From a virus, in the IMG/VR virus record IMGVR_UViG_3300050821_004119, positions 1 through 64,000 of that record: DNA of 64,000 nt; one strand, 5' to 3'. Position 1 is the first letter of the stretch; each line of letters starts with the position of its first letter. A program made the position numbers and the translations under genes. Shown piece after piece: positions 2,747-35,667 of the stretch. Below the pieces are notes generated by a model that saw only the letters and a list, made by a program, of their open reading frames with translations, made no database searches and was not told where the DNA came from.

Positions 2747-3087
2747 TATTTAAATACCTCTGTGCAAAATTTTTGAAATATTTCTTCTTGATTTCCAATA
2801 AATATATCACCTTTTTTATCAGTCATTAATAAATTATCAGAATCTAAAAATTGTGGTTGATTAATTTGACTAATGCTAAAACCAAGTTCTATTTTTTGTT
2901 CATTGGTTAATGCATGAAATACTTTTCTTGACTGTTGAATTAATTTATCTGATTCTATTCGTAGTAATTGGTGATTTTTAAATTCGGGAGTCAATTGTAC
3001 TAAGTTCCAAGATTCATTAGATAATTCACTAGCTAATCTAGTATTATTAATCAAATTTCTAATCTCTGCAATTTCGCCAATTTCCAT
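2746..3087 (-). CDS. Hypothetical protein, 113 aa
   Basis: Highly charged, mostly helical protein beginning MEIGEIAEIRNLINNTRLAS. It is unusually AT-rich compared with the neighbouring ATPase gene. It directly follows that gene with a one-base stop/start overlap, so the two are probably co-translated. No recognised domain. Confidence 0.7.
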   Translation of the reverse strand: MEIGEIAEIRNLINNTRLASELSNESWNLVQLTPEFKNHQLLRIESDKLIQQSRKVFHALTNEQKIELGFSISQINQPQFLDSDNLLMTDKKGDIFIGNQEEIFQKFCTEVFK

Positions 3088-4424
3088 TATGAATTCTCCT
3101 TATTAGTAGCCTTGACTTCGCGACGAATGTCCTTCGCTATAATTTTCTTGAGTAATAACATCGGTTCACAGAGTTCTGCAAGACGTTCATTCTCAGCCTT
3201 AAGCTCTCGGATATATTCAACCGTTTGCTGTGCTTTAAAATTGCCGCCTTGTTTTGCTTCTGTTTCAATAATCTGAAGTTCGAAAATACGATTCTGTAGT
3301 AATCCGTTATCCTCAGTCAGTGAGGCAACCTTTTTATGAAGCGAAGGAATAGTCTTTTCCATTTCATGAAGATACTTTGTCGGAACTACTGATGAACCAG
3401 ACTCAGCCTTGTCATCAATAATCTCTTGCTGCATCTCTTCGAGATTCACGCTCTCAATCGTTTTGAAGTGATTCAGATTTACATCATTGATTGTCCAGGT
3501 TGATTCTGTCTTCGGTTCGTTAATACGATCTTGCAGTTGTATACGACCATTTACATATATACAATCACCGGGTTTCATGCCCTGAACTGTTGCTTGAACA
3601 TTAGATAGTCCACAGATATCTTCGTAAATCTTAATATCATTTGGGTATGTCACATAATGCAATAGAAAAGCTTGACATTGTGTCAGTACGTCCTTCACAA
3701 CACTAGCAGGACGTTGTGACATAATACAAAGGGATATCTCACGCTTACGTCCGCGTTTTGCAAGCTGTACGATCATTTTTAGAAGAGGGTCATCCTTGGC
3801 TACGCCAGCACCCTGCGGGCAGTATTCATGTGCCTCTTCAATAAAGATACGATGGTAATGTTTTGTTTCCTGTGTTGCTGCCTCGAAGACGCCTTGAAGA
3901 TAAGCCTTCAAATAAGTCTTACGAATATCGTCGTCAATACCCGCAAGCAGAAGGACAACGTTCATCTTTTTTAGGTATGCTTTTCTTCCCATTTCGTAGA
4001 ATTCATTACTGTTCGTTAGTTTAATGTCCAGCTTCACGGAATCGAAATTATTAAGAGATGCAAGAGATAATGTATCTATCTTGTTCGCAACGCTCTCCAT
4101 AGTAATAGGAGGTCCAGCGAGCACTACTTCCCCTAGTGTTTTGAGGAAATGATACTCATTCTCAATATCGCAAACCGTAAATCCAAGTCCAAGGCGAATA
4201 TGCTCTTCCATAAATCGGCGAGCAGAGGTAGATTTTCCACTTCCGGTCGAACCCAATAGAGCAATTGACTTGCCGTTAATCTCCTGAGGATCAAGCGCAA
4301 TCGTAGGAGCAAGGATAATATGCTGAGTATTCCGCTGTACTGGCTTCAGCGCGGCACCTAAGGAAGGCGGAGTTGCCATAGGCTTAAGATTAGGGCGCGG
4401 AGGTAGCGGTGGTAATCCTGACAT
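3087..4424 (-). CDS. HerA/FtsK-like P-loop ATPase with C-terminal coiled coil
   Basis: A 445-residue ATPase. Walker A is GSTGSGKS (residues 58-65) and Walker B FIEEAHE (194-200), followed by a PLLKMIVQLAKRGRKREIS segment and SQRPASV, the arrangement of the HerA/DUF87 branch of hexameric DNA-pumping ATPases. The first 30 residues are Pro-rich. Residues about 350-430 are heptad-rich and look like a coiled coil. HerA proteins usually work with the nuclease NurA in end resection; no NurA is visible, but a Cas4/AddB-like nuclease lies in the same operon (15.6-16.9 kb). Its role in replication, recombination or DNA movement is inferred. No TerL nuclease motif is seen, so it is not the packaging motor. 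Confidence 0.85.
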   Translation of the reverse strand: MSGLPPLPPRPNLKPMATPPSLGAALKPVQRNTQHIILAPTIALDPQEINGKSIALLGSTGSGKSTSARRFMEEHIRLGLGFTVCDIENEYHFLKTLGEVVLAGPPITMESVANKIDTLSLASLNNFDSVKLDIKLTNSNEFYEMGRKAYLKKMNVVLLLAGIDDDIRKTYLKAYLQGVFEAATQETKHYHRIFIEEAHEYCPQGAGVAKDDPLLKMIVQLAKRGRKREISLCIMSQRPASVVKDVLTQCQAFLLHYVTYPNDIKIYEDICGLSNVQATVQGMKPGDCIYVNGRIQLQDRINEPKTESTWTINDVNLNHFKTIESVNLEEMQQEIIDDKAESGSSVVPTKYLHEMEKTIPSLHKKVASLTEDNGLLQNRIFELQIIETEAKQGGNFKAQQTVEYIRELKAENERLAELCEPMLLLKKIIAKDIRREVKATNKENS

Positions 4425-11380: not shown

Positions 11381-11886
11381 GATACTTTCTTCTTTGCAGG
11401 CTTCTTAGGAGCCTTTAGTTCAAATTCACCCTTGAGAATAGCTTCACCACATTTGGCAAGTATGAAAGCATCGCATTCATCCTGTGAAGGAAAATCAATT
11501 TGCCACTTCTTATAGACAGCCAATGCCAAATCAGCTTTACCCTTAGATTTTCCACCTTTAGGCGTTTTTATCTCAAGGAAGCGTTTCATCGTTGTTGAGG
11601 CAACTGTAATAAACGGAATATTTTTCTCAATACAAACTCTTTGAATTATGTATTGAACCATACCGCTCTCAGCAACTCCAAACTTAGCAGCAAATGCAAG
11701 ACCTTCATGAACAACTAAGTCAATGTTATTCTCAATGTCTTCGTTTAATCTTTGTTCTAATGAATATAAACGATAGGCATTGTTGTCATGTTCAGCGGCA
11801 CTAATTTTCCAAGTATTATATCCCGTTTCATAAATGAGACATAGTGCCATATTGGTTAAGCCGGGATCAATTCCAAGAATTTTCAT
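11377..11886 (-). CDS. RuvC-like Holliday junction resolvase
   Basis: A 169-residue RNase H-fold nuclease. GIDPGLTN near the start gives catalytic Asp7. VVHEGLAFAAKFG provides the second acidic residue, and the C-terminal QDECDAFILAKCG helix carries the last acidic pair, the RuvC/poxvirus A22 pattern. It would cleave branched DNA before packaging. Start overlaps the recombinase stop by 4 nt. Confidence 0.88.
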   Translation of the reverse strand: MKILGIDPGLTNMALCLIYETGYNTWKISAAEHDNNAYRLYSLEQRLNEDIENNIDLVVHEGLAFAAKFGVAESGMVQYIIQRVCIEKNIPFITVASTTMKRFLEIKTPKGGKSKGKADLALAVYKKWQIDFPSQDECDAFILAKCGEAILKGEFELKAPKKPAKKKVS

Positions 11887-12944
11887 AAAAAACCATTTGC
11901 TAATCTCTCTAGCTCTGTAATCGCATCTTGATTACTACGAATCTCTTCTTTGAATTTATCAATTCCGTTCGCCCTGATCTCTTCAACATCACCTTCGACG
12001 ACGTACGGCAACACATATATATTTCCAGTCTTCGTCTCTTTGAAGTCGCTACCATTTAATACAAGAAATGAAAGGATATCTGTAATCTTATCGAAACCAA
12101 TCTTGTAATCAAGGTGAAGTTCAATGGGTGCAGAAATCGCTTTAATCTTTGATTTCTTTGTTTCGACTTTCATGTCGTGAGACATTGGATTACCATCTTC
12201 ATCCTTATTAAAATGCAATGCTGTTACCCAGGTCTTTGTTGTTGCAGAATACTTTAGGGCTTCCCCACCAGCCCCATAACGAGGGTCACCGAAAGACATG
12301 CCAGGCTTTAGCCGGAGTTGATTGATCCAAAACAGGGTTACTCCACGTCTTCCAGCACTCGCAACGAGGCGAGGGAGCCATAACGAACCAACTCTTGCAA
12401 GCGCCGCCATTCCGACGGCTTTTGTTGCGCTACCACCCCAAGAGTCATAAGTGATTGTGTCAACAATCTTTAAACGATTATTGAACACGAATTCATTTTT
12501 CACCTCTTCATAACCCATTAAATTCATGGCGATCAAACAGGCTTCTTCTGCTGTCTCTGGTCGAATTATAATAAGGCGATCAGGATCACAATTTACTCCA
12601 AGCATTTCAAAGAACTGAATATTTGCTGTGTGCTCCAAATCAATAAGGGCATGAATAGAAGAGGGATGCGATCTCTGATAGGTTCCGACAGAAGCAAGAG
12701 CAATACTAGTTTTGCCACTTCCGGGAGCACCTTCAAGAACATGGAGTCTGCCTTTCGCCCATCCGCCTAAGCCTAGAGCCTTATCTACAGAGTAAAATCC
12801 TGAGGAAAATGTTTCAATGTGTTTAATCGCTAAGGGGTCAGGAACAGAAAGCGGAGAGGTTAGTTTTGCTATCCTCTCTCGCATATTGTCCGCAGTATTG
12901 TCGGAGAGAGCAGTTACGCTCTCTCCTTTCTTTGGACGTGCCAT
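11883..12944 (-). CDS. RecA/UvsX-like recombinase
   Basis: A 353-residue strand-exchange ATPase. Walker A is GAPGSGKT (72-79), followed by LIDLEHTAN (Walker-B-adjacent acidic strand), IVDTITYD, and the loop-containing WINQLRLKPGMSFGDPRYGAGGEALKYSATTK, which closely follows the RecA motif around NQ and the L2 region. It would drive recombination-dependent replication with the SSB candidate, the UvsW-like helicase and the RuvC-like resolvase. Confidence 0.92.
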   Translation of the reverse strand: MARPKKGESVTALSDNTADNMRERIAKLTSPLSVPDPLAIKHIETFSSGFYSVDKALGLGGWAKGRLHVLEGAPGSGKTSIALASVGTYQRSHPSSIHALIDLEHTANIQFFEMLGVNCDPDRLIIIRPETAEEACLIAMNLMGYEEVKNEFVFNNRLKIVDTITYDSWGGSATKAVGMAALARVGSLWLPRLVASAGRRGVTLFWINQLRLKPGMSFGDPRYGAGGEALKYSATTKTWVTALHFNKDEDGNPMSHDMKVETKKSKIKAISAPIELHLDYKIGFDKITDILSFLVLNGSDFKETKTGNIYVLPYVVEGDVEEIRANGIDKFKEEIRSNQDAITELERLANGFL

Positions 12945-17009: not shown

Positions 17010-17311
17010 TAGTGCTGGGTCGAATCTGAGAAACGAGTTGAACGTGCCGTTTTGCGAGCGATCTTGCTCTTAGCGCGATTACGATCTCTATCGACTTTCG
17101 AGAACTTAGACTCTTTATCTGAATAGCCGCGAGGAAATGTTCCATGAAGAAACATGTAATCTACTACGCCAAGCGGAAATGCATTTGTGCTATCGCCGTT
17201 TTCGTCTAGGACTAGATTCATCATCCAATTAGCAGTATTCATCGAAATTTCACTAAGGTCGTAGCTTTTTGCAATAACTAAATCGTTCTCTATAACCACA
17301 TCTGTGTTCAC
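17009..17311 (-). CDS. Hypothetical protein, 100 aa, basic tail
   Basis: Acidic N-terminal two-thirds with a strongly basic C-terminus (DRDRNRAKSKIARKTARSTR), which suggests nucleic-acid contact. Start overlaps the ThyX stop by 4 nt. No family recognised. Confidence 0.65.
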   Translation of the reverse strand: MNTDVVIENDLVIAKSYDLSEISMNTANWMMNLVLDENGDSTNAFPLGVVDYMFLHGTFPRGYSDKESKFSKVDRDRNRAKSKIARKTARSTRFSDSTQH

Positions 17312-18216
17312 TTGACGTATTCTCCTTCAAATGTTTTGCGATATTGAATCCATGTCGGACTGAAATTTCCGTGTTTCTTATTCATTGCGAAGTAGACAGG
17401 TTGTGCAACGTGTTCGAATGCCGACCAATGGCCACTCTGTTCTAGTCTCGTCGCCAATTCCAAATCTTTTTCGATATCTTGTGACCCATGGTTAAGGTAT
17501 GACACCCTGGCACATCTTGCAACTGATATTTTCCGTAAGTCATAATGTGATTCAGGCATTAAAGCATCATGATAATCTACTTGACTTACAAACGGCAAAT
17601 GCCATTCATCATTTTCAATATTATCAGGTGTATGATTTTTAATCACATATCGAATCATTTCAGCAATATGCCTGATCGTTGGATCAGCAAGATCACTGCA
17701 TCTCAGGTGAAAGAAATTATTCCAAGATGTCGAACTAATAACCGTCGTCATCCAAACGAATGGTTCAAGGAGTCGATTTGCAACTTGTTTATGACATCCT
17801 AAGTATGATAATTCTTTTACCTGTTCGACCGCTAAGTTCCTTGCCTTTATCCAATAATGCCTGGCATTAACCTGGAGATTCTCTGAAAGTTCTTCTCCTC
17901 CCTGCATACCCCTTTGATTCGTTTGCCATTTATAGGGCATTGCAGGATTTAATAACACCTGTTCAATGACCTTATTAATTGGAATAGCTCTTGAGGATGC
18001 TGCATTGCGTGAAAACTCACGGTGAGTCATTAGCTCTGAATGAACGAACCTTGGATAGGTTACAACAATCGTTGTCAATCTTGAACCATATTGATTCAAT
18101 GAGTCCGCAATGATCTTAGCTTCATACCTACTTTGATCACTGATTTTTAATATAGGTGAATCTTCAATGAAGAATTGATTACCATTATTCTCTTCGTTTA
18201 AGATGTATTCAATCAT
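17308..18216 (-). CDS. thyX: Flavin-dependent thymidylate synthase ThyX
   Basis: A 302-residue FAD-dependent enzyme that methylates dUMP to dTMP. The signature region THREFSRNAASSR (64-76) matches the ThyX motif RHRxxSxNxxSxR except that the first Arg is Thr. Later conserved parts (RLEQSGHWSAFEHVAQP) are also present; the C-terminal SPTWIQYRKTF fits ThyX. With the dCMP deaminase at 30.5 kb it gives the phage its own route from dCMP to dTMP. It overlaps both neighbours by a few bases. Confidence 0.93.
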   Translation of the reverse strand: MIEYILNEENNGNQFFIEDSPILKISDQSRYEAKIIADSLNQYGSRLTTIVVTYPRFVHSELMTHREFSRNAASSRAIPINKVIEQVLLNPAMPYKWQTNQRGMQGGEELSENLQVNARHYWIKARNLAVEQVKELSYLGCHKQVANRLLEPFVWMTTVISSTSWNNFFHLRCSDLADPTIRHIAEMIRYVIKNHTPDNIENDEWHLPFVSQVDYHDALMPESHYDLRKISVARCARVSYLNHGSQDIEKDLELATRLEQSGHWSAFEHVAQPVYFAMNKKHGNFSPTWIQYRKTFEGEYVK

Positions 18217-25246: not shown

Positions 25247-25332
25247 GTTAGTCCCTTTCTTATGAAGTTTTCTTTCTTGTCGATATATTAGGATACAAAA
25301 GACACGATGTCGATAGGTCGAACAGGGAATAT

Positions 25333-25355
25333 ATTGTAAAGATGATCTTTACAAT
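25333..25355. promoter_or_regulatory. Palindromic operator between divergent promoters
   Basis: Arms ATTGTAAAGAT and ATCTTTACAAT (11 bp each) flank a single G, a perfect inverted repeat. Each arm supplies the TTTACA element for one direction: module B to the right and a TAATAT-type box for the minus gene to the left. This looks like a dimeric regulator site serving both units. Confidence 0.6.
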
Positions 25356-25402
25356 TAAAGGTGACCTAATCCTTATGTTTTATGCTAGGATGTCGATACA
25401 TT
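25348..25402 (+). promoter_or_regulatory. Repeated promoter module B (TTTACA-41-GATACATT)
   Basis: TTTACA (25348-25353), 41 bp, GATACATT (25395-25402) preceded by ATGTC, then TAGGAG. Same spacing as module A. Confidence 0.52.
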
Positions 25403-25420
25403 AAACATAGGAGAACCATC

Positions 25421-25555
25421 ATGCGGATCTTCAGTAGTGTACAATCAGCAGTTGCAGCAGGGTTCCATGTTTGGGACCGAACACAGGATGGAAGCTTTCT
25501 GGTAAGGATCTTAACACCTAAAGGATATGCACTCGCTTTAGCGAAAGGAAATTAA
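25421..25555 (+). CDS. Hypothetical protein, 44 aa
   Basis: MRIFSSVQSAVAAGFHVWDR... with TAGGAG upstream. A short amphipathic helix then strands (GSFLVRILTPKG). One base separates it from the next ATG. Unknown. Confidence 0.58.
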   Translation: MRIFSSVQSAVAAGFHVWDRTQDGSFLVRILTPKGYALALAKGN

Positions 25556-25667: not shown

Positions 25668-25669
25668 AG

Positions 25670-25716
25670 CCCGCCTGAAGAGTCCAAGCAGGACGAAACC
25701 CCGTAAGGGGTCGCGG
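25670..25716 (+). ncRNA. Type I hammerhead ribozyme
   Basis: All core elements are present in order: stem I 5' strand CCGC (25671-25674); core CTGAAGA (25675-25681), a CUGANGA match; stem II GTCC/GGAC with an AAGCA loop; core GAAA (25695-25698); stem III CCCC/GGGG with a GTAA tetraloop, closed by the A-U pair next to the core; cleavage triplet GTC (ending at C25712); and stem I 3' strand GCGG (25713-25716). Stems II and III are looped and stem I is open, so it is type I. Self-cleavage is predicted between C25712 and G25713, separating the 36-residue gene from the lipoprotein gene. Confidence 0.88.
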
Positions 25717-25725
25717 ATATACCGC
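25713..25725 (+). promoter_or_regulatory. Post-cleavage hairpin competing with ribozyme stem I
   Basis: GCGG (25713-25716) can pair with CCGC (25722-25725) across ATATA. The same GCGG is the 3' strand of ribozyme stem I, so the two folds exclude each other. After cleavage the hairpin would sit at the very 5' end of the lipoprotein mRNA. Confidence 0.6.
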
Positions 25726-25748
25726 AACATATACTAGGAGAATTTATA

Positions 25749-25895
25749 ATGCGTTACCTTTCAATCCTTGCGCTTCTCGCGCTTGCTGCTTGCGGTTCTT
25801 CAACGAACGCGCTTCCGACAACGACCTCCGTCTCACGCGCCCCTGCGTACTACCAGAATTGTACGGTTCCTGTGAAATGTGGTAATTTCCACTAA
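25749..25895 (+). CDS. Small lipoprotein, 48 aa
   Basis: MRYLSILALLALAAC carries a lipobox LAAC with Cys15, so the mature product would be a 34-residue lipid-anchored peptide with Thr/Ser-rich N-terminus and a CTVPVKC pair. TAGGAG precedes the ATG. Small phage lipoproteins such as T5 Llp block receptors and prevent superinfection; that role is an inference here. It lies directly behind the hammerhead ribozyme, with a terminator after it. A TATACT-like box (25730-25735) just upstream could also be a weak promoter. Confidence 0.72.
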   Translation: MRYLSILALLALAACGSSTNALPTTTSVSRAPAYYQNCTVPVKCGNFH

Positions 25896-25912: not shown

Positions 25913-25941
25913 AAAAGGATGCTTTAATTGGCATCCTTTTT
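25913..25941 (+). terminator. Rho-independent terminator
   Basis: Ten-bp stem AAAAGGATGC/GCATCCTTTT with an 8-nt loop and T-rich tail. Two bases later the TTTACA of the next promoter module begins. Confidence 0.87.
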
Positions 25942-27998: not shown

Positions 27999-28075
27999 GA
28001 CGCTGTAGCTCAGCTGGTTAGAGCGCCGCCCTGTCACGGCGGAGGTCGAGGGTTCGAGCCCCTTCAGCGTCGCCA
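27999..28075 (+). tRNA. tRNA-Asp (GTC)
   Basis: Full cloverleaf of 77 nt: acceptor GACGCTG/CAGCGTC, D-arm with AGCTCAGCTGGTTAGAGC, anticodon stem CCGCC/GGCGG with loop CTGTCAC (anticodon 28033-28035), T-arm GAGGGTTCGAGCCCCTT, discriminator G and encoded CCA. Confidence 0.97.
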
Positions 28076-28507: not shown

Positions 28508-28582
28508 GGTCTGCTCGTCTATCGGTTAGGACGCTGGCCTTTCACGCCGGTAAGTAGGGTTCGACTCCCTAGCAGACTACCA
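28508..28582 (+). tRNA. tRNA-Glu (TTC)
   Basis: 75 nt. Acceptor GGTCTGC/GCAGACT (first pair G-U), D-arm GTCTATCGGTTAGGAC, anticodon stem CTGGC/GCCGG with loop CTTTCAC (anticodon 28541-28543), T-arm TAGGGTTCGACTCCCTA, discriminator A, encoded CCA. Confidence 0.95.
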
Positions 28583-28618: not shown

Positions 28619-28999
28619 ATGATAAATTCAGAATATCAATCAAATTTATATTTTAAGAAACGATCTGATATTATTTCTCAATTAGGAGGAGCCTGTGTAA
28701 AATGTTGGTCAACTTCTAATTTAGAAATAGATCATCGAATTCCTGAAAATAAAAGTTTTAATATTAGTAAGAAATTAAAACAACATGGATATGATATTGA
28801 TGTTGAAATTTCCAAATGTCAGTTATTGTGTTTCAGATGTCATAGTGTGAAAAGTATTACTGAACGAGGAGATGTTGTAACCAAGGGACGTGATATTCAT
28901 GGGACATTATCTGCATATAGATATTGTAAATGTCCTTTATGTAAGGGTGCAAAGTCCGAATACATGAGAGAATATCATAGATTAAATCCTCGTTATTAA
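28619..28999 (+). CDS. HNH endonuclease, 126 aa
   Basis: Cys26/Cys29, then EIDHRIP (Asp38, His39) and CQLLCFRCH (Cys67, Cys71, Cys74, His75): an HNH fold with a structural zinc. The C-terminal part has a second CPLC. Very AT-rich and without a clear SD, which suggests recent acquisition as a free-standing homing nuclease beside the tRNA-Glu gene. Confidence 0.82.
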   Translation: MINSEYQSNLYFKKRSDIISQLGGACVKCWSTSNLEIDHRIPENKSFNISKKLKQHGYDIDVEISKCQLLCFRCHSVKSITERGDVVTKGRDIHGTLSAYRYCKCPLCKGAKSEYMREYHRLNPRY

Positions 29000-29490: not shown

Positions 29491-29648
29491 TTAATGTAGG
29501 GGATCATGTGACTCACAAACACTTTGGTGAAGGTATTGTGATTGAGATCGAACCAATTGTGGTTGAGTTTCATCCCAAACCATTTGTAAAGATTTTCAAT
29601 GTTTTCAACTCTGTGCAGTTGGATGTGGTAAAATCTGTGCATGAATAA
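29487..29648 (+). CDS. Tudor/SH3-like small protein, 53 aa
   Basis: MINVGDHVTHKHFGEGIVIE... matches the GDxVxHxxFGxGxV motif of the Tudor-like domain at the C-terminus of PcrA/UvrD helicases and of CarD-type RNA-polymerase-binding domains. A free-standing domain could target host RNA polymerase or a helicase; this is inference. Start chosen at the ATGA overlap (29487). Confidence 0.62.
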   Translation: MINVGDHVTHKHFGEGIVIEIEPIVVEFHPKPFVKIFNVFNSVQLDVVKSVHE

Positions 29649-30336
29649 TAATTATATTGCTTACTATCGGGTCAGCACGAAGGATCAAGGTCGGTCAGGT
29701 CTTGGTCTTGAAGCACAAGAAGCAACTGTAAAAGAATACTGTTTGAAGAATGATTTGAATTTGATTGCTTCTTATACAGAGGTTGAGACTAGCACAAAAG
29801 ATACATTGGAAAATCGTCCAGTGTTACAAAAAGCTCTTGGGCATTCTAAGAGAATTAGTGCTGTATTAATTATAGCCAAACTTGATCGACTTTCTCGCTC
29901 TGTGTATGTTACTTCATTATTACATAAGTCTGGTGTGGAATTTTTGTGCTGTGATATGCCATTAGCCAATAGGTTCACTATTAATATTCTTGCAGCAGTT
30001 GCTGAACAAGAAGCGCAAATGATTAGTGAACGTACTAAGGCAGCATTAAAGGCTTTAAAAGCCCGTGGTATTAAGTTAGGTACTCATCGTCCAGAGTGTG
30101 CTAATAATTTATCTGAAGAAGGAAGACAACTTGGTAATAAACGAGGTTCTTCTAGGAATCGACAGATTAAAAAAGAGGCTTACGCTGATATACTTCCAGA
30201 GATTGTGGCAATGCGTCATAGTGGCATGCAGATTAAAGATATTACTTTAACCCTCAATGATAAGGGTTATACAACTCGTACAGGTTGTGGTTTTCATACA
30301 ACAACTGTTCGGCGCTTACTTGCATTAGGAGTTTGA
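29641..30336 (+). CDS. Small serine recombinase (resolvase/invertase family)
   Basis: 231 residues. YYRVSTKDQGRSGLGLEAQ gives catalytic Ser12 and Arg10; LDRLSRSVYV and EQEAQMISERTKAAL are the remaining conserved blocks. The C-terminal 60 residues (MRHSGMQIKDITLTLNDKGY...TTVRRLLAL) form the HTH. Too short for a large serine integrase, so resolution, inversion or a transposition-like role is more likely than standard integration. Overlaps the preceding gene by 8 nt. Confidence 0.9.
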   Translation: MNNNYIAYYRVSTKDQGRSGLGLEAQEATVKEYCLKNDLNLIASYTEVETSTKDTLENRPVLQKALGHSKRISAVLIIAKLDRLSRSVYVTSLLHKSGVEFLCCDMPLANRFTINILAAVAEQEAQMISERTKAALKALKARGIKLGTHRPECANNLSEEGRQLGNKRGSSRNRQIKKEAYADILPEIVAMRHSGMQIKDITLTLNDKGYTTRTGCGFHTTTVRRLLALGV

Positions 30337-31432: not shown

Positions 31433-32098
31433 ATGGCAAAAACGCAATACAAGCAAGCGAAGGAACTTTCGCTCCAGGCGCGTCTCAAGCAGGTTCTTCG
31501 GCTTCATATGGGCGGAATGAGCCATTTTGGCATTGCCCGCGAGATGGAATATAGTGTTGCACAGGCCAAAAAGGATGTTGCGACGATCTCTCATGCCACA
31601 AGAGAATGGGATGACGTCGGTGAGTATCTGAAGGATGTTGTTACGCGCACTGGCGAATTACTGAAAAATTTGAAATATCAGCAGGATTTACTGCAAAAAC
31701 AGTTGGATTATTCGAATGAGTGGGTCGTTCAGCTTGATTCCTTCGCTCAGCCAATCAAAGAGAGACTGTCGAATGGAGAACTTGGTTCCATCCTTTACGG
31801 ACCTCGTGACTCTCGACTTTCTATCGCCCTTAGCTCTAAAATCACTGATCTGATCGAACAACAGGGTAAATTACTTGGTGTTTACGCCAAAACCATGGAT
31901 GTGACGGTCAAACTTGAAGAATCAGAGAAAACTACTGTGCTTGTTCTTCAAGCTATTCAAGAGGCCGCACCCGAACTACAATCCAAAATTGTGCGTAAAT
32001 TGAAAGCTCTACGTGCCTCTGAAAACCGATTCTCTAACGTAGAAGTCGAAAGACTCGAAGGCGAGTACGAAGAGCCTGGGTATCTCGATGCCGAGTAA
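31433..32098 (+). CDS. Putative terminase small subunit
   Basis: 221 residues, immediately upstream of TerL and overlapping it by 11 nt. The N-terminal part has an HTH-like segment (RLKQVLRLHMGGMSHFGIAR... YSVAQAKKDV), followed by a long helical, coiled-coil-prone region. DNA recognition at the packaging site is its expected role; assignment rests largely on HTH and position. Confidence 0.72.
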   Translation: MAKTQYKQAKELSLQARLKQVLRLHMGGMSHFGIAREMEYSVAQAKKDVATISHATREWDDVGEYLKDVVTRTGELLKNLKYQQDLLQKQLDYSNEWVVQLDSFAQPIKERLSNGELGSILYGPRDSRLSIALSSKITDLIEQQGKLLGVYAKTMDVTVKLEESEKTTVLVLQAIQEAAPELQSKIVRKLKALRASENRFSNVEVERLEGEYEEPGYLDAE

Positions 32099-33983
32099 TC
32101 CTAGGGGTGTAGACGGTCATCACGCGGGCGGCGGCGCACGTAAGAAGACGACTACGTACCTCGACATTGATAAGGTATCCGATAAGGCATCTAAATTGAT
32201 GACCTCTATTGATGATTACCTGAACGCACTACCTGACGAAGACGAAGTTGTCGATGAAATATTTAAGGAAAAGTTTGTAGATTTAAGAACCTGGCTTTAT
32301 GCTCCTGAATATATGGGTCTTGAAATTCAGTTATCGCCGATTCAGTTCGAAGTTATGCAAGCAATGGATAATTATGATCCAACGACTAATCCTTATACTG
32401 AAGCAGTCTGTGAATGGGGTAAAGGATCAGGAAAAGACTTTGTGTCTGCTCTTTGTGCTCTTCGTTGTGTCTATTGGTTGCTATGTTTAAGAAGTCCTTA
32501 TCTTTATTACAAGTTAGCAAAAGGTACTGGAATTCAACTTTGTAATGTCGCTTATACTGCTGAACAGTCAATTTACGTTTATTTTAAGCAATTAACCGGA
32601 TTGATTAAGGCTTCATCTTGGTTTGTGAAACAAAAACCTGATATTAAGAAGTCCAGAATTGATTTTGCAAATGAAATTACTCTTGTGTCTACTTCTACTG
32701 ACGGCGATAGTGCTGAGGGTCAGAATCTTATATTTGCGGTTATGGACGAAGCATCGGCTTTTAAAGATTCAAAGACGATTAAGGCGCAGTCGCGCAAGGA
32801 TGGGGTTAAAGTAGACCGAGCAGCAGATGGAATATATAAAGTATTAAGATCATCTATTAATTCTCGCTTTCCTAACTCTGGAAAATTAATGATCATCTCT
32901 TATCCTCGTTATAAGGATGATTACATTCAAACAAAGTTAGAAGAGAATAAAAATGCCACAAAAGGTTTCATTTCTGGTCCCTATGCAACTTGGGAAGTTA
33001 ATCCATCTAAACAAAGATCTGATTTTAATGAGGATTATGAAAAGAATCCTGAATTAGCCGATGCAATGTATGGTTGTAATCCTCCCTTTTCTGAGGACGC
33101 TTGGGTTAAGTATCCAGATAGATTCCTAAAATGCATTCTTAATTCGGTGAAATTAAATACTTTAAAGTCACCGATTAATGAATATGGCATTTATGATCCC
33201 TTTTTCCAGGGAACACCTGGTAAGCTATATTGTATTCATGTAGACCTTGCGCTTAATTCAGATAAGTGTGCTTTATCGCTTGCTTCGCAGGGACATCCTA
33301 TTATCAAAGAGAAGTGTCCTTGTGGAGCTAATGCTCCTTGGGATGAGAAATATGAAGTTTGCAGTAGTTGTGGTTTAACAAAGGACAAATGGCTGAAGAT
33401 TTCAATGCCAACAATGGTTGTTTCTTTATTGAAACATTTTCGCCCCAGAAGTTCTGCATCGGGTAGACAAGAAGTACATTTCGCTGATATTCGTGAGGAA
33501 ATTCTCTTTCTTCGTGATCGCGGACATAAAATATGGGCTCTATCATATGACGGATGGCAATCAAGAGATTCCATTCAGACGATGCAGCGTCTCTTAGGAA
33601 AACGAATTATCAAGGATAGATGGGGACAACCTATTCGTGAAGAGGAAATAGCTCAAACTTTATCAGTTGACCGAGATACTAAGGCTTATGACACATTAAA
33701 AGAGTTTATTTATGATGAGAGATTTTTTATAACACCTCCTGAAGATGTGAAGAAAAAAGAAGATTGGGAAACCTCAGAAGATCCAGTAGCAATTGCGTTT
33801 AGGGAATTTAGGGGATTGAGACTAATTAATGCAAAAAAGGTAGACCATGCGATTGGATCAAGTAAGGACTTCACAGATGCAATAGCAGGATGCGCTTATT
33901 GGATATCACAGATGCCAATATCAAGAGGCAGAGGTCCATCTTTAAATGGTTGGCGCGAGAATATTAGTACGGATAGGAGATAA
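32088..33983 (+). CDS. Terminase large subunit (packaging motor)
   Basis: 631 residues. Walker A EWGKGSGKD (109-117), Walker B IFAVMDEAS (215-223), and a coupling region. The nuclease domain begins YCIHVDLALNSDKC with catalytic Asp386. A four-cysteine ribbon (C410, C412, C425, C428) is inserted after the first nuclease strands, which is uncommon in TerL. It powers DNA packaging and cuts genome ends. Confidence 0.93.
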   Translation: MPSNPRGVDGHHAGGGARKKTTTYLDIDKVSDKASKLMTSIDDYLNALPDEDEVVDEIFKEKFVDLRTWLYAPEYMGLEIQLSPIQFEVMQAMDNYDPTTNPYTEAVCEWGKGSGKDFVSALCALRCVYWLLCLRSPYLYYKLAKGTGIQLCNVAYTAEQSIYVYFKQLTGLIKASSWFVKQKPDIKKSRIDFANEITLVSTSTDGDSAEGQNLIFAVMDEASAFKDSKTIKAQSRKDGVKVDRAADGIYKVLRSSINSRFPNSGKLMIISYPRYKDDYIQTKLEENKNATKGFISGPYATWEVNPSKQRSDFNEDYEKNPELADAMYGCNPPFSEDAWVKYPDRFLKCILNSVKLNTLKSPINEYGIYDPFFQGTPGKLYCIHVDLALNSDKCALSLASQGHPIIKEKCPCGANAPWDEKYEVCSSCGLTKDKWLKISMPTMVVSLLKHFRPRSSASGRQEVHFADIREEILFLRDRGHKIWALSYDGWQSRDSIQTMQRLLGKRIIKDRWGQPIREEEIAQTLSVDRDTKAYDTLKEFIYDERFFITPPEDVKKKEDWETSEDPVAIAFREFRGLRLINAKKVDHAIGSSKDFTDAIAGCAYWISQMPISRGRGPSLNGWRENISTDRR

Positions 33984-33984
33984 C

Positions 33985-35667
33985 ATGCTTACGAAAATCA
34001 ACGACAGGCCAAAAGCAAATCGTAGAACATACAGTTTTGAAGTATTGCATAATAGCAAGGATACCTTTGAATCTGATATGAACAATTTCCTTGAGCATGT
34101 TACGAAACGACGTTTTTTCGAAATTCAACAGGAAATATTAGGGCAAAAAGGCCCAACTAAGAATTCAACCATTGGTCAGAAGAAAAGCGTCGGAGGCAAA
34201 TTAAAACTTCGTCTTCCGATTTCAACGATTGCTGGTTTTGGTAATCAATCTGAGCAGACTTTAATGTCGGCATTTGGTTGGTATTGGGAACCGTTATTGC
34301 ATGATCTTGTGTTTTTTGAAGAAATGCGCGCAGCAGTTTCTCTTATTGATGGACAAGTTAATAAGCTGGTCGATACTGCTCTTTTGGGATTCCGCATTGT
34401 TAATGATGACCCAGAAGTTGTTAAAAATGTCAGCGAATTAATGCTTTATAACCAAAATGTGAATTTAAGAGAGTCAATTCGTCGTTGCATGGTAGATTTA
34501 TTCTCTATCGGTAATAGTTATACAAAACCAGAGTGGACTAAAACTGCTGCTGGAATGACAACGTTAGAAGTGATTCGTCCAGTTCGTGCAAATGCTATAC
34601 GTAAGTTGCGTAATGAGAAATTAGCAACCGAAGGATATGTCCAGTTGCTTCATCGTCCATCTGAATTTATTCTTGGTGGCACACCGCATACGCCTACGAT
34701 TTATCTATATGATGAAATGCTTTGTGGTATGCAACGTAGCACTGGATGGTATGCCTATGGTGTTCCGTTATTGGCATCATTGCCGTTCGCAATTAAACTG
34801 AAACTTCAAATGGAACGCGATTTGGCCGAGATGTTGCATCAACATTTGCCTCGTATTGTTGTGAAATTCTCCCCAGATGACCAAATGAATCAAGAACAAG
34901 TCGATCAGGCTCTTGCTGATTTGACAACTAAAGTTTCTCAAATGCGTCCGTCTGATAATTTTGCAACAACTCCTGACGTTGATATTACATATGCTGGTCC
35001 CCAGGGACATGCATTAGACTTTTCTTCTACACAGAAACACATCGAGGAACAGTTATTTTATGTTCTACCGTTCGCTCCATCAATTATGGGACTTGACTCT
35101 AAGTCTAATCCTTTCGATTCTCAACAACATTGGACTGTTGCCGTCAATACTGCTTATGACCTTAGACACGCTATTGGTGTTATGTTCCGCCCGATGTTTC
35201 GTGTTCTTGAAGAAGATTGGGGTTGCAGTGAAATAAGTATTGGATACGATGATCTTGATCCCGAGATGACCCAGAAGCATGCTGAGACTGATGAATATGT
35301 GACTAATAATGCTGTGTTAAAGCGTGACAATGGATTTCTCGATCAGGACACCGCTGCAATACAAGCAACCGCCCATCATCCAGATGGTTCTGTCAAGAAG
35401 GCCGCGAAGCCAGGAGCAATTCCTCCTCCCGTTGCCAATGACGGAACGAATACGAACGGAATTCCGAATAAACCGAAGAATTCTGGTAATCCTAAACCTG
35501 CTAAAGGCAAGGAACCTGTGAAGCCAAACGGTCGCGTTAGAACAAAGGGTCCTAAGAAGGATGGTACGAAAGTTCCCGATAAGGATAACCGTACTAAAGG
35601 AAAGAGACATTCGTTTCAGGATGAGGCACTTGCTCAATGGGCGATCTCTGAACTTAATGATGAATAA
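33985..35667 (+). CDS. Portal protein
   Basis: 560 residues from the ATG after AGGAG at 33985 (a longer frame runs into terL). The order terminase-portal-protease-capsid identifies it. Internal features fit: a helical stem region with acidic C-terminus and a Pro/Lys-rich tail (residues about 480-545). No catalytic motif. Confidence 0.85.
   Translation: MLTKINDRPKANRRTYSFEVLHNSKDTFESDMNNFLEHVTKRRFFEIQQEILGQKGPTKNSTIGQKKSVGGKLKLRLPISTIAGFGNQSEQTLMSAFGWYWEPLLHDLVFFEEMRAAVSLIDGQVNKLVDTALLGFRIVNDDPEVVKNVSELMLYNQNVNLRESIRRCMVDLFSIGNSYTKPEWTKTAAGMTTLEVIRPVRANAIRKLRNEKLATEGYVQLLHRPSEFILGGTPHTPTIYLYDEMLCGMQRSTGWYAYGVPLLASLPFAIKLKLQMERDLAEMLHQHLPRIVVKFSPDDQMNQEQVDQALADLTTKVSQMRPSDNFATTPDVDITYAGPQGHALDFSSTQKHIEEQLFYVLPFAPSIMGLDSKSNPFDSQQHWTVAVNTAYDLRHAIGVMFRPMFRVLEEDWGCSEISIGYDDLDPEMTQKHAETDEYVTNNAVLKRDNGFLDQDTAAIQATAHHPDGSVKKAAKPGAIPPPVANDGTNTNGIPNKPKNSGNPKPAKGKEPVKPNGRVRTKGPKKDGTKVPDKDNRTKGKRHSFQDEALAQWAISELNDE

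Follow-up and report, generated by a model that had tools for sequence, protein, structure and literature searches.

The hammerhead and its locus

The element described here is a type I hammerhead ribozyme, a predicted self-cleaving RNA, encoded at positions 25670-25716 of a 64,000-nucleotide (nt) stretch of viral DNA (hereafter the window), which corresponds to positions 1 to 64,000 of the 70,311-base IMG/VR record IMGVR_UViG_3300050821_004119. The record represents an uncultured phage that encodes terminase, major head and tape-measure proteins. Its replication genes run leftward up to about 23 kb, its structural genes run rightward from about 31 kb, and very small open reading frames (ORFs) lie between the two blocks. 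The ribozyme is situated among these in a short apparent transcription unit of about 550 nt, which comprises three small ORFs and ends in a terminator-like hairpin. The features of this unit, with the basis of each assignment, are as follows.

25421-25555, + strand: ORF of 44 amino acids (aa; MRIFSSVQ...), the first of the apparent unit; from the ORF list, with a homologue at 2001-2135 of the related contig L437
25557-25667, + strand: ORF of 36 aa, whose TAA stop ends 3 nt 5' of stem I; read directly and from the ORF list
25671-25674, + strand: 5' strand of stem I, CCGC, pairing with GCGG at 25713-25716 over 4 base pairs (bp); read directly, Rfam and descriptor
25675-25681, + strand: catalytic core CUGAAGA; read directly and Rfam
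25682-25694, + strand: stem II, GUCC (25682-25685) with GGAC (25691-25694), loop AAGCA; read directly, Rfam and folding
25695-25698, + strand: core GAAA, of which GAA is 25695-25697 and A25698 pairs with U25711; read directly and Rfam
25699-25710, + strand: stem III, CCCC (25699-25702) with GGGG (25707-25710), loop GUAA; read directly, Rfam and folding
25710-25712, + strand: cleavage triplet GUC, read directly and in Rfam, with the predicted cut at 25712/25713, after C25712
25713-25716, + strand: 3' strand of stem I, GCGG, which doubles as the 5' strand of a downstream hairpin; read directly and folding
25722-25725, + strand: copy of the stem I 5' strand, CCGC, at +10 to +13 from the predicted cut, closing the hairpin 25713-25725; folding
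25736-25740, + strand: ribosome-binding site (RBS) AGGAG of the lipoprotein gene; read directly
25749-25895, + strand: ORF of 48 aa, a small lipoprotein with a lipobox-like LAAC, starting at +37 from the predicted cut; from the ORF list
25913-25940, + strand: terminator-like hairpin of 10 perfect pairs with a TTTT end, closing the unit; read directly

The hammerhead residues were assigned by direct reading of the + strand, and fold energies are those of lowest-energy RNA folding. The core that defines the class (CUGANGA ... GAAA ... NUH) is present within 25675-25712 as CUGAAGA, GAAA and GUC, together with three helices of 4 + 4 + 4 bp and the A-U closing pair; stems II and III are closed by loops and stem I is open. 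An earlier interpretation made from the letters of the window (the sequence-only reading) had reported all core residues and three perfect stems, and its coordinates and stem lengths were confirmed by direct reading. The search with hammerhead models that it had proposed yielded a full-length match (cmscan) to Rfam RF00163 (Hammerhead_1) at 25669-25718 on the + strand, with 33.4 bits and an E-value of 1.7e-6. This is 0.6 bit under the curated gathering cut-off of the family (34 bits), which is a practical threshold rather than a property of the class, and because the score falls just short of it a default Rfam scan shows no match at this place. When the whole record was searched with Hammerhead_1 as the single family, the E-value was 4.6e-8 and no second match was present. 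Likewise, a strict type I descriptor applied to both strands of the window matched this site alone, and it matched nothing in 100 windows simulated with a Markov-1 model. Of 381 nonredundant type I hammerheads surveyed, 23 have this CUGAAGA version of the core, in which the free position 7 is A. We consider the element a real, near-textbook type I hammerhead of a known class, for which self-cleavage is predicted.

Both flanking genes were found where the sequence-only reading had placed them, i.e., the 36-aa ORF upstream and the 48-aa lipoprotein ORF downstream, in the same direction as the ribozyme. The lipoprotein had neither a Pfam match nor a relative in the phage collection searched, and its matches to PHROGs were all weak (best: Rz-like spanins, E-value 0.017). 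The hairpin at the end of the unit was not flagged by a consensus terminator scan. L437 was the only close relative found that reaches the ribozyme region (87% identity in the best terminase segment). It keeps the homologue of the 44-aa ORF, followed shortly by what appears by eye to be a terminator-like element; it has no hammerhead match, and neither the 36-aa ORF nor the lipoprotein has a counterpart in its ORF list. For this reason, the 36-aa ORF, the ribozyme and the lipoprotein gene together look like a removable cassette. With the sole close relative found lacking the ribozyme, covariation could be seen solely in comparisons among unrelated phage hammerheads.

The absence from L437, the score under the Rfam cut-off and the lack of a visible loop II pseudoknot are what one would expect of an inactive relic or a chance look-alike that does not cut. 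We regard this as very improbable, given that every core residue, all 12 stem pairs and the A-U pair are intact in a 70-kb phage record, and given the empty simulated windows and the E-value of the single-family search.

The downstream hairpin and the upstream stop codon

Two features of the locus had been left out of the sequence-only reading: on the downstream side a hairpin in competition with stem I, and on the upstream side the close spacing of the stop codon. The RNA 3' of the predicted cut begins with GCGGAUAUACCGC, in which GCGG-AUAUA-CCGC (25713-25725) can form a hairpin, so that the GCGG at 25713-25716 has two mutually exclusive partners, the upstream CCGC (stem I) or the downstream CCGC (hairpin). 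The lowest-energy fold of an RNA ending at 25721 is the hammerhead (-19.2 kcal/mol), and that of an RNA including the copy at 25722-25725 is the hairpin (-20.7 kcal/mol). An extended outer stem I as an explanation of the downstream CCGC was ruled out by eye, as there is no complementary GCGG just 5' of 25671.

The recurrence of this arrangement was followed in type I hammerheads collected from viral contigs, and also from bacterial genomes, by patterns blind to the sequence downstream of stem I; similar sequences were removed, and the survey counts are samples among the matches listed. Among hammerheads with a CCGC stem, 110 of 214 carried a copy of this stem's 5' strand at +8 to +20, compared with 8-21 in the six following 13-nt windows. 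The bacterial-genome set, which is included in the 214, gave 43/100 vs. 2-8 when taken alone. For GCCA stems the copy was found in 25 of 29 cases (0-5 in other 13-nt windows), and it matches the stem to which it belongs: the GCCA family has GCCA downstream 25 times and CCGC never. With all non-CCGC stems pooled, 39 copies were counted vs. 19.2 by permutation (p = 2e-4). Permutation is uninformative for the CCGC family, whose members share one stem I so that shuffling of tails cannot break the match; its controls were the position windows, the other stems, the second collection and non-hammerhead TCGCGG sites, 10.9% of which have CCGC at equal distance. AT-rich stems showed no positional enrichment of the copy (21 vs. 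20, 19, and 17), and the claim of a capture hairpin is thus limited to GC-rich stems, within which it fails for CCCA and CCCG. The phage site falls in the grouping that we propose, phage hammerheads with a downstream capture hairpin, having the complement of its stem I 3' strand within +8 to +20.

Six hammerheads with a 5' strand other than CCGC opposite GCGG (mostly through G-U pairs) bear on what is conserved in the downstream element. In five of them this element is fully Watson-Crick complementary to the 3' strand, and in none does it repeat the 5' strand, which argues that pairing, not duplication, is maintained. When 93 nonredundant relatives with a copy were folded, the lowest-energy structure of the RNA preceding the copy contained stem I in 66 cases; with the copy transcribed, the hairpin was found in 56 and stem I in 14. 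In addition, the known pseudoknot, with at least 4 bp between loop II and the bases just 3' of stem I can be drawn in 43 of 78 relatives (16.7 by permutation). Since these bases lie largely in the hairpin loop, formation of the hairpin would abolish both interactions by which the downstream product is retained. The median start of the downstream ORF in relatives with the hairpin is +37, the same distance as at the phage locus, and a start within +12 to +130 was present in 89 of 99 hammerheads with a copy vs. 65 of 94 without (p = 5e-4 overall).

On the upstream side, the TAA of the 36-aa ORF lies within the 5-nt spacing that is common, although not universal, in the survey. Across three stem families, upstream stop codons amount to 15 per nt at -5 to 0 vs. 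2.1 at -30 to -6. Among genes that run into the ribozyme, 66 of 85 use the UGA within the core CUGA as their stop codon, where one third would be expected (p = 7e-17). With the upstream gene ending at or near stem I, the 5' part of the ribozyme would lie under a ribosome that is terminating translation. The stop spacing is equal with the hairpin (48 tight, 39 loose) and without it (43 tight, 39 loose), and we therefore treat hairpin and stop spacing as separate features.

Two further observations came from the survey. In the GCCA-stem hammerheads of L356 and L555-L582 the core UGA is the upstream stop in 11 of 24 assigned cases, and seven phage or bacterial contigs (L187, L216, L261, L288, L441, L442, and L491) carry four or five hammerheads within a few kb, often each just 5' of a gene.

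The same data can be read in two other ways. The ribozyme could be a plain hammerhead that cuts between two genes, with the downstream CCGC incidental in this phage. It is complete without the copy, the copy is absent from about half of the CCGC and most CCCA hammerheads, and the chance of a copy at a single site is about 11%. We find this account decidedly unlikely in view of the strong and stem-specific enrichment across the surveyed hammerheads and of the fact that the phage site also fits the typical spacing to stop and start codons. Alternatively, the hairpin could act as an anti-ribozyme in a regulated system, where the partner chosen by GCGG, as set by the speed of transcription and by a ribosome on the upstream stop, decides whether the RNA is cut. 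The two mutually exclusive partners, the hairpin as the lowest-energy fold of the uncut RNA and a stop 3 nt from stem I, a spacing that is the rule in the survey, would all suit such a switch, as would the blocking of ribozyme assembly by downstream competitors described in vivo in PMC2817708. However, transcription yields the ribozyme ahead of the copy, and until the copy emerges the hammerhead has the lowest energy; moreover, the hairpin is equally frequent with tight and loose stop spacing, i.e., with no sign of a joint switch; we rate this possibility as unlikely but not negligible.

Proposed cleavage and product capture between cistrons

From the observed sequence and fold, the hairpin and its recurrence, and the stop spacing, we infer cleavage, product capture, protection of the mRNA and coupling to the ribosome. 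The reading that we favor, at somewhat better than an even chance, is intercistronic RNA punctuation, in which cleavage would separate the cistrons and leave the lipoprotein message with a 5'-OH and a hairpin cap. In the three-gene transcript, stems II and III would form during synthesis, followed by stem I, and the RNA would cut itself after C25712. The copy at 25722-25725, transcribed next, would take over the 3' strand of stem I to form the hairpin 25713-25725, thereby detaching the downstream product from the ribozyme and making re-ligation unlikely. The lipoprotein mRNA would thus begin with a 5'-OH inside a hairpin, with the RBS about 10 nt beyond it, while the upstream product would terminate in the stem III hairpin with a 2',3'-cyclic phosphate. 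Since the upstream gene ends 3 nt before stem I, a ribosome in termination would sit over the 5' portion of the ribozyme, which may tie cleavage to translation termination.

The 5'-OH at position 25713 of the lipoprotein message was already predicted in the sequence-only reading and is supported by the sequence, by Rfam and by the comparative data. Its further suggestion, the processing of a polycistronic early mRNA, holds as far as the processing of a multi-gene message is concerned, which is the most plausible role of this hammerhead and agrees with an earlier proposal by Perreault et al. 2011 (PMC3088659) that prophage hammerheads cut long phage transcripts; the apparent unit here is short.

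Several results weigh against intercistronic punctuation as set out above. By eye, loop II of this copy of the ribozyme has at most 2 nt of continuous Watson-Crick complementarity to the tail, i.e., the copy lacks a visible loop II pseudoknot of the kind enriched among its relatives, and for this reason its activity at low Mg2+ may be modest; pseudoknots are predicted in only about 40% of hammerheads according to PMC3088659. The copy at the phage site is not significant when taken alone, and CCCA and CCCG stems carry one at +8 to +20 in 7/79 (0-3 in other windows) and 1/15 cases, respectively. Within single collections, hairpin and downstream gene are weakly associated (p = 0.05 and 0.15), and folding indicated no clearly freer RBS after the predicted cleavage. 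Furthermore, in uncut RNA the hairpin competes with a stem I of only 4 bp and might inhibit rather than help; in yeast, as reported in PMC2817708, a downstream competitor can block the assembly of a self-cleaving ribozyme if its helices are weak.

A broader claim, to which we give slightly less than an even chance, is that a large fraction of phage type I hammerheads are complete punctuation modules, in which a stop codon fused to the ribozyme (often as the core UGA) and a strand-exchange hairpin would couple cutting to termination, make cleavage irreversible and protect the 5'-OH by a hairpin, as a natural counterpart of the synthetic insulator RiboJ. If hairpin and stop coupling are functional, the role of the ribozyme would be to produce defined, protected message ends between phage genes. 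The downstream copy and a stop at the core UGA would then also serve as sequence signs of working phage hammerheads that, like this one, score below the Rfam cut-off.

Wider setting and comparison with known systems

No relative of the phage was found in the named phage collection, either by DNA or by the 573-aa protein encoded at 33946-35667, and a query with the recombinase recovered none. This recombinase (integrase/invertase family, 29641-30336) and an HNH endonuclease (28619-28999) adjoin the small-gene region. Genes for tRNA-Asp (27999-28075) and tRNA-Glu (28508-28582) are also present; L437 has two tRNAs in the corresponding region (3239 and 3630). Upstream of the apparent unit, the divergent intergenic stretch 25247-25420 holds a perfect 11+1+11 palindrome, ATTGTAAAGATGATCTTTACAAT, at 25333-25355, the only one in the window with arms of at least 10 and a candidate operator. 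Within 125 bases of the same stretch, TGTCGATA occurs three times (25278, 25308, and 25391; eight copies on the + strand window-wide) and is a possible regulatory repeat. Five small genes between 25409 and 26407 share a nearly identical leader, AGGAGAA...ATG. The replication block includes a Thy1-type thymidylate synthase (17308-18216, - strand) and a RecA-like protein (11883-12944, - strand). The product of 3087-4424 (- strand), labelled terminase by PHROGs, is a HerA-like ATPase (Pfam DUF87, E-value 5.6e-10; solved HerA-type chains, 1.6e-11), and the terminase beside the structural genes is at 32088-33983.

Type I hammerheads are already known in phages and prophages (PMC3088659), and the ribozyme itself is a new member of this known class. 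The ribozyme resembles these RF00163 members in its core, three stems, open stem I and GUC triplet, as well as in its intergenic position between small phage genes; it differs from them in scoring just under the Rfam cut-off and in having no visible loop II pseudoknot. RAGATH-1 (RF03152) hammerheads have a related catalytic core, but membership in that family can be rejected, as the score is 21.1 bits against a cut-off of 56.3. Neither the capture hairpin nor the link to the stop codon appears in the passages of PMC3088659 consulted, and we found neither the hairpin nor the stop-codon fusion in the literature searched, a body that largely excludes subscription papers and on which no priority can be claimed. 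Its architecture seems to be a variant that has been little described and is common to many phages. PMC6155905 counts the role of bacterial and phage hammerheads among the open questions of the field.

The closest functional parallel comes from synthetic biology. According to PMC6206723, RiboJ is a synthetic insulator made of an sTRSV-derived ribozyme and a 23-nt hairpin; it raises transcript abundance about twofold on average, and its terminal hairpin is considered by the authors a possible cause. The order of its parts (self-cleaving ribozyme, hairpin, RBS) is that of 25670-25740, a likeness of function only. RiboJ was engineered from a satellite-RNA ribozyme, whereas the phage element is natural, of type I, and shares the 5' strand of its hairpin with stem I; should hairpin and stop coupling prove functional, such elements would provide natural, compact parts for RNA insulators.
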